Assembly (NCBI GenBank): GCA_900299025.1
Contig: OMIE01000085.1
Location: forward strand, 1-47,838
Direction of reading: 5' to 3'
DNA from: Burkholderiaceae bacterium
GTDB taxonomy: Bacteria > Pseudomonadota > Gammaproteobacteria > Burkholderiales > Burkholderiaceae_E
Length of the DNA: 47,838 nt
Within the stretch, counting starts at the first letter, position 1, and the number at the start of each line of letters is the position of its first letter. Below the pieces are notes generated by a model. That model ran no database searches and was not told the origin of the DNA. It saw only the letters and a list, made by a program, of their open reading frames with translations. A program made the translations under genes and the position numbers. Below, in pieces: positions 23,301-27,588 of the stretch.

Positions 23301-24314
23301 CTAGGCATTGGTTTTAGGCCTGCGTCCGTAAAAGGGGTATTGGGGATCTGAGTACCCAGGCGTGGAAGGATGCCCTGGTGCTACGAGTGAATCGACGAGT
23401 TGCTCGTCATCGTCGTTCCATGACAAATGGATCGCAGGTAAATAATCGTTCCATTGTTTAAGCGTTCGAGGCCCGGCGATCACTGAACTCACGATTTGGT
23501 TTGCCAGTAACCATTGAACCGCAAAGGCAACGAGGCTGCACGACTTCTCAGCACAATGAGCTGCCAGTCTTTGTGCAACCTGCAATGACTCCTCGCGCCA
23601 TTCAGTCTGCATCATTCTACGATCAAGCCGTCCTGCTCTAGTTTCTGCAGCAGGCTGCACCCCAGGCTGATACTTGCCACTCAGTACGCCACGGGCAATC
23701 GGACTGTAAGGAACGACGCCAAGACCAAACGCCTCACAAGCGGGGAGGATCTCGACTTCAGGAACCCGGTTGAGCAAATTGTAGTAAGGCTGACAAAGAC
23801 TGGGGCGCGGCACTGACATCTGATCGCAAAGTGCAACAAGTTGTGCAATCCGCCAGCCGCGCATGTTGGATACAGCCCAATAGTGGATCTTGCCAGCGCG
23901 CATTACATCGTCAATCGTCGCCAGAGTCTCGGGCCAGTTTGTGTCGTCCCAGTCCCGATGCAAGTACCAAATATCCAAGTGATCCGTTTTGAGACGACGC
24001 AAGGAATCGTCCAGCGCGCGCATCATCCAGCGTCGCGAGTAAGCACGATGGTTTGGGTCATCGGACATCGCATTGCCGAGCTTACTCGCAAGGATCCAAC
24101 GATCGCGCTGCCCTGCCAAAAGCTCACCGAGCATCGTCTCGCAAGCACCCTTGCTGTATACATCGGCAGTATCGATGAAGTTAACGCCCTGCTCACTCGC
24201 GGCTGCCAGTATCGACGCCGCCTCGCTCGCATCTGTTTGATCGGCAAACATCATCGTGCCAAGACAAAGTTCAGAAACCTTCAGATTGCTCGATCCGAGT
24301 CGGCGATACCGCAT
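23301..24314 (-). CDS. aldo/keto reductase
   Basis: A 337-residue NADPH-dependent oxidoreductase of the AKR superfamily ((alpha/beta)8 barrel). The catalytic tetrad is complete: D48 and Y53 (in FIDTADVYSKG), K78 (ASKLGN) and H119 (YLHRDWDD). The layout (YRRLGSSNLKVSELCLGTMMF start, VPYSPIARGVLSGKY, then VIAGPRTLKQWNDY) fits the Tas/YajO-like group; the substrate is unknown. I start at the ATG at 24314 behind GGAGTT; the longer frame overlaps the preceding gene. It lies 37 bases after the ECF sigma gene on the same strand, in the place where an anti-sigma gene would often be. Confidence 0.9.
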   Translation of the reverse strand: MRYRRLGSSNLKVSELCLGTMMFADQTDASEAASILAAASEQGVNFIDTADVYSKGACETMLGELLAGQRDRWILASKLGNAMSDDPNHRAYSRRWMMRALDDSLRRLKTDHLDIWYLHRDWDDTNWPETLATIDDVMRAGKIHYWAVSNMRGWRIAQLVALCDQMSVPRPSLCQPYYNLLNRVPEVEILPACEAFGLGVVPYSPIARGVLSGKYQPGVQPAAETRAGRLDRRMMQTEWREESLQVAQRLAAHCAEKSCSLVAFAVQWLLANQIVSSVIAGPRTLKQWNDYLPAIHLSWNDDDEQLVDSLVAPGHPSTPGYSDPQYPFYGRRPKTNA

Positions 24315-24351: not shown

Positions 24352-25416
24352 TTAGTCCTCACGCTGCATCAGAAGCCGTTTGCGAGCGCGGTGAACTCTA
24401 ATCCAGCAATTGTTCTCGCTGATACCGAGACGATTTGCCACCTCTAAGGACGGACGGTCTTCAACAACCTGCATCACAAAGGCTTCACGCATACCGGGCG
24501 CCATCTCGCTAAGGCCCTTTGCGACGCGATTGAGTCGCTGTCGCCTTGAGCAAATCTCCATCGGATCCTCGTGGGCACGGACGCCCATCACACCACAGCG
24601 AGCCGCCCAATCGAGCTGTTCCTCGGCAGATGCTGAGTCATCGTCGATCCAGTCCGCATGCGTGTAATGGCATTCGGCGCGAAAGCGATCGTGGATTTTG
24701 TGATCGAGAATACCGCGCAGCCAAGAGCGGACCGAACCCCGGCCTCGGTAGCTTGCCCTGCTCTGGTAAGCGGCAATGAGAGCTTCCTGGACCGCATCCT
24801 CTGCCCACTCGTGGCTGCGCACCCGCAGCCTTGCCATCCGCATCAATGCCTTGCGATGTTCTTCGAGGCGGGCGGGGTAGAACTCATGGCTGATATCCAC
24901 AGCAGGCGGAAGCACAGCTTGGGATTGGACTTCTGATTCGCTATCTGTCTGGGGCTGGGGATCGGCATCCGAAGCTGCGTCGGCCTGCCTCTCTGTGAAG
25001 GTATGGCCATCTGCATCCGCATCGATACAGGCAACAGGATCAGCGTCGATGCAGGCTTGGACGTCCACACCGATGTCGGCTTGGTCATCCCCATCGATGT
25101 AGGATTGGACATCCGTGTCGATGTAGGCTTCGGCATCAGCATCGTTATCGATGCTGGCTTCAGGATCGTTATCGGCATCCGTCAATGCGCCTTTGTAGCC
25201 ACCGGTATCAGTGCCGATGAAGATCTGGGCATCACTGATGGCATCGCTGGCCGAGGCTGTGCTCGCTTCTTGGCGATCGATGACATCGGACTGATCTGCG
25301 GTGCGTGGTACTTTGGAAGTAGCGCGTCCAAGGCCATGCCTTGAAGCGGCTTGCGGTGAATGTCTCGCGCGCTTTGTCCGCTTGATACTTACTAAGTTGC
25401 TGCTTGGTGCTTGCAT
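24352..25416 (-). CDS. ECF-type RNA polymerase sigma factor with Asp-rich N-terminal repeat extension
   Basis: The C-terminal ~165 residues are an ECF sigma factor: region 2 at about 191-244 (LMRMARLRV, EWAEDAVQEALIAAYQS, then SVRSWLRGILDHKIHDRFR) and region 4 at about 297-351 (LSEMAPGMREAFVMQVVED, then the helix-turn-helix LEVANRLGISENNCWIRVHRARKRLL). Ahead of it is an extension of roughly 175 residues. It begins basic (KRTKRARHS), and then carries five 8-residue repeats of the form I-D-x-D-x-x-A-x (99-138) within a long Asp-rich acidic tract. ECF factors are usually about 160-200 residues. I start at ATG 25416 behind GGGAG; ATGs lie further upstream, and a GTG just before region 2 could give a core-only form. 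The usual downstream zinc-finger anti-sigma gene is absent. The target promoters are unknown. Confidence 0.85.
   Translation of the reverse strand: MQAPSSNLVSIKRTKRARHSPQAASRHGLGRATSKVPRTADQSDVIDRQEASTASASDAISDAQIFIGTDTGGYKGALTDADNDPEASIDNDADAEAYIDTDVQSYIDGDDQADIGVDVQACIDADPVACIDADADGHTFTERQADAASDADPQPQTDSESEVQSQAVLPPAVDISHEFYPARLEEHRKALMRMARLRVRSHEWAEDAVQEALIAAYQSRASYRGRGSVRSWLRGILDHKIHDRFRAECHYTHADWIDDDSASAEEQLDWAARCGVMGVRAHEDPMEICSRRQRLNRVAKGLSEMAPGMREAFVMQVVEDRPSLEVANRLGISENNCWIRVHRARKRLLMQRED
25003..25152 (-). repeat. 24-bp tandem repeat array inside the sigma gene
   Basis: Five units of exactly 24 bp (25003-25122) encode IDTDVQSY, IDGDDQAD, IGVDVQAC, IDADPVAC and IDADADGH; a related 30-bp unit (IDNDADAEAY) precedes them. 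Copies share ATCGAY..GAY and CAAGCC-type cores but have drifted, so the array is old enough to have mutated while staying in frame. Confidence 0.85.
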
Positions 25417-25563
25417 GTTTAGGCTCCCTGGGTTGAATGAAGCAGCCATGCTGATCATCCAAGGTCTCCAAAGCCTCACGCTGCCAACACTTCTTGATCG
25501 CATTTCGATCACTTTCTAATCACCGCCGAATCACCGCGATGCAAAGCGGCACACCGACAACCT

Positions 25564-25597
25564 GGGCTTGACCGAAACAAGGGCTTGACCGCAACAT
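25564..25597. repeat. 17-bp tandem direct repeat upstream of the response regulator
   Basis: GGGCTTGACCGAAACAA and GGGCTTGACCGCAACAT abut with two mismatches, ending seven bases before the response-regulator start codon and inside the divergent spacer with the sigma gene. OmpR-family regulators bind direct repeats, so an operator is possible, though the 17-bp spacing is longer than the usual 10-11 bp. Confidence 0.7.
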
Positions 25598-25604
25598 TGG
25601 TCGC

Positions 25605-26348
25605 ATGCAAGAGGACAACCGAATTATGTTGGTCGAGGACTTGAAGGACTTCAGGCAATTGCTTGCAGCCCAGCTGCGAAATCGACACTTGGAAGTAATC
25701 GAGTTTGAAGACGGTCTCCAGGCCAAGCGCTTTCTCAGCACTGAGCGGCCTAGCGTTGTGTTACTCGATATGAATCTACCCTTGCTTGACGGCGTTGAAC
25801 TCCTAAAGTGGATGCGTGGCGAGGATATTCAAGCAACCGTGATTATGATTTCTGGAAGTGAGGACGAACTTGACCGCGTACTTTGCCTCGAGCTCGGTGC
25901 AGATGACTTCCTGGTCAAGCCCTTTAGTGCTCGGGAGTTATTAGCGCGTATTCGGGCGGTTCAACGCAGGCGGCAGGTCGGGCTTCAACCGGGAAACCCG
26001 AGCTCAAAAGCTTTGACAACAGAGAAGGACAATCAAGCGGCCACGACGAGGCAAATTCGTGCTGGTCGCTTGATGCTTGACACAGAACGCCACCGCGTTG
26101 AACTTGACGGTCAATTACTAGAACTTACGACCATCGAATTTCGATTGCTACATTGCTTTATGAGCCAACCACAGCGGGTTTTTAGTCGAGCACAGTTGCT
26201 TGACGCAGCCTGGGGCCGTGATTATGTGGGCTATGAACAAGCGGTCAACAACCACATTTTGCGCTTGCGGCGTAAGATTGGCGATTCCGTGGAGGCACCC
26301 CTACACATACAAACCGTCAAGGGCGTTGGGTACCGCTTCGAACCTTAG
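25605..26348 (+). CDS. OmpR/PhoB-family response regulator, orphan
   Basis: The 247-residue protein has a receiver domain (about 5-120) with the acidic pair ED (11-12), phospho-acceptor D55 (VLLDMNLP), S83 and K105 (LVKPFSAREL), a polar linker (about 125-150), and a C-terminal winged-helix domain (LTTIEFRLLHCFM, FSRAQLLDAAWG, NNHILRLRRKIG, IQTVKGVGYRFEP). It would activate or repress transcription after phosphorylation. No histidine kinase gene is adjacent. There is no clear ribosome site before the ATG at 25605. It diverges from the ECF sigma gene across a 188-bp spacer with 17-bp direct repeats. Confidence 0.93.
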   Translation: MQEDNRIMLVEDLKDFRQLLAAQLRNRHLEVIEFEDGLQAKRFLSTERPSVVLLDMNLPLLDGVELLKWMRGEDIQATVIMISGSEDELDRVLCLELGADDFLVKPFSARELLARIRAVQRRRQVGLQPGNPSSKALTTEKDNQAATTRQIRAGRLMLDTERHRVELDGQLLELTTIEFRLLHCFMSQPQRVFSRAQLLDAAWGRDYVGYEQAVNNHILRLRRKIGDSVEAPLHIQTVKGVGYRFEP

Positions 26349-27450: not shown

Positions 27451-27508
27451 AAAAGAATAGGCGCTTGGCACGGGTCGATTAAAACAATCGAGCGATTGCT
27501 TCGTGTAG

Positions 27509-27588
27509 TGAACGCAGATTTAGCTTGGTGAGCGCTTGCTGCATGTAGCAAGCGCAGATTCATCTTGGTGAACGCAGACTAAGCTTGA
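27509..27588. repeat. three ~20-bp repeats in the yajQ-folE2 spacer
   Basis: Copies beginning at 27509, 27549 and 27569 share a core of CGCAGATT-AGCTTGGTG, the last one slightly diverged. They lie in the convergent 142-bp spacer and flank the hairpin at 27532. Confidence 0.7.
27532..27555. terminator. hairpin between convergent yajQ and folE2
   Basis: GCGCTTGCT and AGCAAGCGC form a perfect 9-bp stem with loop GCATGT. There is no T-run, so termination by this element alone is uncertain; it sits between the ends of two convergent genes. Confidence 0.5.

Follow-up and report, generated by a model that had tools for sequence, protein, structure and literature searches.

The window, by which we mean the whole stretch of 47,838 nucleotides analysed here, belongs to an assembly of 2.97 Mb in 180 contigs (genome G000), of which it forms one contig. 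Its minus strand carries a gene for an ECF sigma factor with a long N-terminal extension, an aldo/keto reductase gene follows downstream, and a response-regulator gene diverges from the sigma gene on the other side of an intergenic region that contains direct repeats (Table 1). For comparison a family set of 74 genomes was used, four of them in the genus: G000, G001, G002 and G003. A 40-bp tandem repeat was also seen at 27490-27575, between two ORFs of the window.

Table 1. Features of the sigma factor locus, with positions in the window
Feature	Position	Strand	Basis or remark
Aldo/keto reductase	23301..24314	-	ATG 24314 picked by similarity to relatives; downstream neighbour
ECF sigma factor, 354 aa	24352..25416	-	ATG 25416, ribosome site GGGAG
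Sigma-2 / sigma-4 core	24352..24900	-	Pfam, AlphaFold2, dN/dS
Acidic stretch, predicted unstructured	24901..25281	-	Charge, AlphaFold2
Five in-register 24-bp (8-aa) Asp-rich units	25006..25125 (about)	-	Tandem Repeats Finder, lag identity
Basic N-terminal head, residues 1-45, net charge +7	25282..25416	-	Charge count
GTGAT direct repeats, 11-bp period, candidate PhoB/OmpR-type box	25486..25534	-	Similar box conserved upstream in most homologues tested
17-bp direct repeat, about two copies, TTGACC core	25564..25596	+	Just upstream of response-regulator start
OmpR/PhoB-type response regulator, divergent	25605..26348	+	ORF, profiles, synteny

The minus-strand ORF runs from 25512 to 24352 and encodes 386 residues when read from a GTG, or 354 when read from the ATG at 25416. 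In the 386-residue frame the Pfam matches above cut-off were Sigma70_r2 (residues 217-279) and Sigma70_r4_2 (331-380), and TIGR02937 (sigma70-ECF) scored 60.1 bits against a cut-off of 42.9, as for an ordinary ECF core. TIGR02943 was the best NCBIfam match, yet its 88.3 bits stayed below the cut-off of 162.2. A search of solved structures with the window sigma gave four weak ECF matches, all to the core, and of the 382 plasmid records that matched none covered 80% of the query; the ten plasmid matches listed start no earlier than query residue 159 and so cover the core. Over the last 101 codons compared with G001, dN/dS was 0.017 (dS 2.4, near saturation), indicating purifying selection on the sigma core. 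Both the window and G003 have a ribosome site before the ATG, and AGGGAG lies ahead of the ATG of G001. Since the GTG at 25512 falls inside the conserved repeat box, ATG 25416 is the most likely translation start, and a single start is supported by the sequence of the window sigma gene. A sigma-70 promoter scan of 25390-25640 found no promoter.

Close homologues of the sigma gene were taken as the loci of 37 of the 40 family genomes matching at E<=1e-30 (without G083, G088 and G097; loci L061-L063, being copies, were merged). An alignment-based scan of genome contigs gave 25 loci and a single-protein scan none. A divergent regulator gene was present in all 35 close homologues with upstream sequence. 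A histidine kinase gene lay beside the regulator in 32 of the 34 homologues that could be judged, L003, L055 and L065 being left out because their contigs end; the two exceptions were the window and G003. No kinase adjoined the regulator in any of the four genus genomes, and in G001 and G002 another gene follows the regulator. When the full-length kinase of G028 was compared with the genus, 22 matches were obtained at E<=1e-10, none of them starting before residue 165 of 487; the sensor part of the kinase thus has no match in the genus. The genus regulator resembles an orphan, with the aligned Asp-55 and Lys-105 retained. In G003 the regulator (L032:4640-5698) contains a Pro/Ala-rich repeat linker of roughly 100 residues between its two domains, and the window's regulator is without it. 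The G002 stretch aligned to the 17-bp repeat in front of the regulator is longer, with more such units.

Direct repeats of about 11 bp are the usual sites of PhoB/OmpR-type regulators, and the GTGAT repeats upstream of the sigma gene form what we take to be a box of this type. Three overlapping matches were found in the window against 0.10 expected, and three of the four matches in the whole genome at up to two mismatches lie in this box, counts that are descriptive because the consensus was drawn from the same sequences. Among 36 homologues (the window and G003 included, L003 omitted as it has no upstream sequence), the score of the best site was reached by at most 2 of 200 shuffles in 31, and the other five were weak (12-14 of 200). 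With start codons assigned by rule, and by hand for two genus members, the distance from box to ATG was 54-95 nt in 32 of the 36 and 15-114 nt overall; the window has 79 nt and G003 61 nt. Judged from synteny and the box, the divergent PhoB-type regulator is likely to control transcription of the sigma gene.

On the downstream side, the original prediction held that the sigma gene has no adjacent zinc-finger anti-sigma gene and that an aldo/keto reductase gene follows it, and both statements were borne out: no ORF with the ZAS motif of zinc-finger anti-sigma factors adjoins the gene, and the reductase does. The further idea that such an anti-sigma gene commonly follows related sigma genes applied to distant homologues. 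An adjacent downstream ZAS-motif ORF was found in 11 of the 14 members of a more distant comparison set (one of which, L090, falls in the close clade in the tree) vs. none of the 37 close homologues; under a narrower adjacency rule the counts were 7 of 14 and 0 of 37. A search for the zf-HC2 domain gave none in the four genus genomes, with the control positive in 5 of 14 genomes. TIGR02943-type ECF sigma factors, and distant homologues that have a short zinc-finger ORF downstream (L021, L024 and L025 among them), are homologous to the window sigma in the core; no ZAS-motif ORF adjoins the close homologues. The extension had been proposed to stand in for a lost anti-sigma factor, with the reductase gene in the place of the anti-sigma gene. 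Neither proposal was supported. The 34 homologues tested outside the genus have 8-64 residues before region 2 and likewise lack an adjacent zinc-finger anti-sigma gene, and the tail therefore did not replace one; the order of sigma gene and aldo/keto reductase is conserved synteny, found in 21 of the 37. Further neighbours carry names that we assume, such as GNAT or YajQ.

The extension of the window sigma, about 170 residues from ATG 25416 to region 2 (roughly 160-180 across the genus), contains a genuine Asp-rich 8-residue repeat. The identity of the extension DNA to itself at a lag of 24 was 0.431, a value reached by none of 1000 codon shuffles, whose maximum was 0.356 at lag 24 and 0.392 at any lag tested. 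Tandem Repeats Finder called a 24-bp unit (score 91, 25047-25137) and a 48-bp unit (score 114, 25039-25144), and raised lag-24 identity extends upstream to about 25180. The strict 24-bp register that had been claimed holds for five units, YIDTDVQS, YIDGDDQA, DIGVDVQA, CIDADPVA and CIDADADG, of which four have the motif I-D-x-D. No codon-position signal of protein constraint was detected between the repeat units, and the array DNA gave only weak partial matches elsewhere in its own genome when it was sought as a genome-wide repeat family. The predicted basic patch at the N-terminus was confirmed by charge count. Behind it, a segment of 130 residues spanning nearly the whole acidic stretch has a net charge of -31, matched by 1 of 1637 same-size main-ORF windows in a 320-kb sample of G000, a sample that includes the window itself so that this sole match may be the tract, and by 0 of 86 shadow-ORF windows. 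The coding frame of the tail is free of stops and is the most acidic of the six frames. In an AlphaFold2 model built from 22 sequences the core was confident and the tail unstructured, mostly with pLDDT <50. The suggestion that the basic head folds onto the array drew no support from this model; the alignment has one other long-tailed row (L066, the G003 gene), so the model speaks for disorder only weakly and does not argue at all against weak docking.

Tails could be read in three of the four genus members, the G002 contig stopping before the start codon. G003 has a complete sigma gene; in G001 the gene is split, one contig ending within a 42-bp array of the tail and another beginning inside the sigma gene. 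All three readable tails contain a tandem repeat, each with another period: 24 bp (8 aa) in the window, 42 bp (14 aa) in G001 and 36 bp (12 aa) in G003. In G003 the identity at a lag of 36 bp was 0.482, and 1000 codon shuffles gave at most 0.412 whatever the lag; the array was not called by Tandem Repeats Finder at score 50 and is visible by autocorrelation only. The original prediction had named absence of the array from close relatives as a point against it: acidic arrays recur in G001 and G003, and the 8-residue unit itself is absent there. In all three tails the first 45-60 residues are basic and the remainder acidic. The genome-background test, which covered the window and G003, showed that the net charge of -18 in a 118-residue tract of G003 was reached by none of 1368 main-ORF and none of 1322 shadow-ORF windows, and here too the coding frame was the most acidic of six. 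For G001 the sense frames were compared, and the tail, as far as the contig reaches, carries -13 in frame, the two remaining frames giving +17 and +38. Aligned to the window tail, the G001 tail beat all 300 shuffles. The score of the G003 tail was reached by 116 of 300, so its continuity with the window tail is judged from position and charge pattern. That three related species show one tail with differing repeats and a similar charge pattern is a new observation.

From ATG to region 2 we counted 184 codons in the window and 170 in G003, against 8-64 in the other 34 homologues. As the spacing from box to ATG is like that of the relatives and the stretch from ATG to region 2 is much longer, the extension was apparently added after the start codon. 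The three genus members cluster together in the tree, and their stem is long, at 1.87 changes per column with support 100/100. On this same stem fall the origin of the tail, the rapid evolution of the core and the absence of the kinase as a neighbour, a correlation that counts as a single event. In another genus, L015, L016 and L019 have the same sigma factor with a short acidic N-terminus of about 56-64 residues and a variable Asp-Leu run; their position in the tree is a different one and has modest support.

The reading we prefer, and hold tentatively at somewhat short of an even chance, is that of an ECF sigma factor from a family-level clade of Burkholderiales lacking an adjacent anti-sigma gene, which is switched by a regulator and bears an acidic tail, maintained by composition, that acts as a brake. 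The divergent PhoB-type regulator would bind the conserved 11-bp-period repeats and turn on transcription of the sigma gene. The tail, a basic head and an Asp/Glu-rich tract, would have been rebuilt repeatedly from different tandem repeats, with selection keeping its acidity and not its sequence. As an electrostatic or entropic brake it might occupy positively charged surfaces of the sigma factor in competition with DNA or RNA polymerase, and would thus tune sigma activity instead of serving as a specific sensor. Several findings weigh against this reading. The tail is seen in three species only, one of the tails is truncated by a contig end, and the three species share ancestry and are thus not independent trials. 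The genus regulator has no kinase alongside, 5 of the 36 boxes are weak, and 4 of the 36 box-to-ATG distances lie outside 54-95 nt. The lack of a codon-position signal between the repeat units counts against it as well.

A somewhat unlikely alternative is neutral minisatellite growth, in which repeats prone to slippage would have grown behind the start codon, tolerated by a disordered N-terminus and leaving a tail without function. Tandem arrays of all kinds numbered 21 in the 320-kb sample of G000 and 52 in a 239-kb sample of G003, and in-frame arrays within ORFs numbered 8, the sigma array included, and 29-30, respectively (30 if ORFs cut by contig ends are also taken in, 29 otherwise). Arrays being frequent in G003, repeat expansion itself may be mutational, and neutral growth is also favoured by the unconstrained codon positions between units and by the expanded repeat linker of the G003 regulator. 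Other counts speak against it. The sigma array alone was strongly acidic among the 8 in-frame arrays of G000 (acidic excess 11, the next 2), and the excess was at most 1 in 27 of 29 in G003, the other two, at 6 and 8, being clearly acidic. Neither was array density raised in the window genome, with 6.6 per 100 kb vs. 0-30 in samples of nine other family genomes, and the three different repeats that occupy this position each read as acidic in the coding frame. Expansion may therefore reflect a mutational tendency, most of all in G003, and acidity of the kind seen at the sigma tail is unusual. Arrays with a 22-bp period recur in G003 (L112, L114, L120, L123, L125 and L128), and five of these six lie within ORFs of at least 100 aa even though a 22-bp unit does not make up a whole number of codons.

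The tail could instead be a stability element, a disordered N-terminal degron that sets the lifetime of the sigma factor. A precedent exists in SigR' of Streptomyces, an unstable long isoform with a Clp-targeting N-terminal extension of 58 residues (PMC5472188). The window sigma resembles SigR' in being extended upstream of region 2, and its tail is unstructured in the AlphaFold2 model. SigR' is described there as a second isoform with a cognate anti-sigma factor, RsrA; for the window sigma a single start is supported. Acidity would not obviously be needed in a degron. We consider this explanation distinctly unlikely.

According to the original prediction the protein may be a self-contained sensor, with an Asp array that could bind Ca2+ or Mg2+ and thereby release the sigma factor. 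This would suit the high density of Asp (28 D in 172 residues) and the lack of zf-HC2 domains in the four genus genomes. On the other side, no EF-hand, RTX or other repeat family matched the sigma factor at E<=1, so that Ca2+ binding draws no support from a known family, the repeat unit is not conserved between species, and the tail-less relatives are also without an adjacent anti-sigma gene. Such a sensor is accordingly improbable, and control of transcription by the neighbouring regulator is better supported. Finally, it is barely plausible that the tail is untranslated and that the true start is one of the GTGs just before region 2 (residues 201 and 206 in the window frame, residue 180 at the matching place in G003), an outcome that the original prediction had named as a point against itself, since a motif test found no ribosome site at these GTGs in the window or in G003 and there are good ones at the upstream ATGs, the distance from box to ATG resembles that of the relatives, and the coding frame is stop-free with strong acidity in that frame only. 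We strongly infer, then, that the N-terminal tail is translated, which is very probable.

Parts of the preferred reading, a regulator-switched sigma factor with an acidic brake, have counterparts among known systems. Reviews describe ECF sigma factors that do without an anti-sigma factor and depend for their control on two-component systems or on extensions (PMC8999054, PMC8103513). Those said there to be controlled transcriptionally beside a two-component system include SigE/CseBC and SigQ/AfsQ1Q2 (PMC8999054). With these the window sigma shares the lack of an adjacent anti-sigma gene, an adjacent OmpR-type regulator and a candidate site before the sigma gene; unlike them, it has a divergent regulator, no kinase beside that regulator in the genus, and a long acidic tail. 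N-terminal extensions are described for the former ECF87-89 of Planctomycetes (PMC8103513) and for some ECF36 (PMC8999054). The window sigma is like these in having such an extension and differs in that its extension is an unstructured acidic repeat tract varying between species, whereas the ECF36 examples, as presented there, have transmembrane helices and DUF2275. OrbS is reported to have an iron-sensing region at the C-terminus (PMC9023288). A literature search for such acidic tails, judged from titles and the openings of abstracts, showed no such system among the papers listed. Region 1.1 of primary sigma factors, a folded domain, is likewise acidic and N-terminal, and it may shield surfaces that bind DNA. 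The acidic N-terminal segment of the window sigma is likened to it by this general description, region 1.1 being folded and belonging to primary sigma factors.

Within the family, the sigma gene of this genus retains its neighbouring regulator and a candidate binding site though the kinase is gone from beside them. It is conceivable, and we think rather unlikely, that in this lineage, without a kinase as neighbour, the sigma factor acquired an autoinhibitory tail encoded by composition and free of any fixed sequence, whose repeat number and type change freely, and that evolution uses it, where kinase input once acted, as a tuning knob for sigma activity. The three species provide three natural variants of one tail, so that control of the sigma factor by charge vs. 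by sequence is directly testable.
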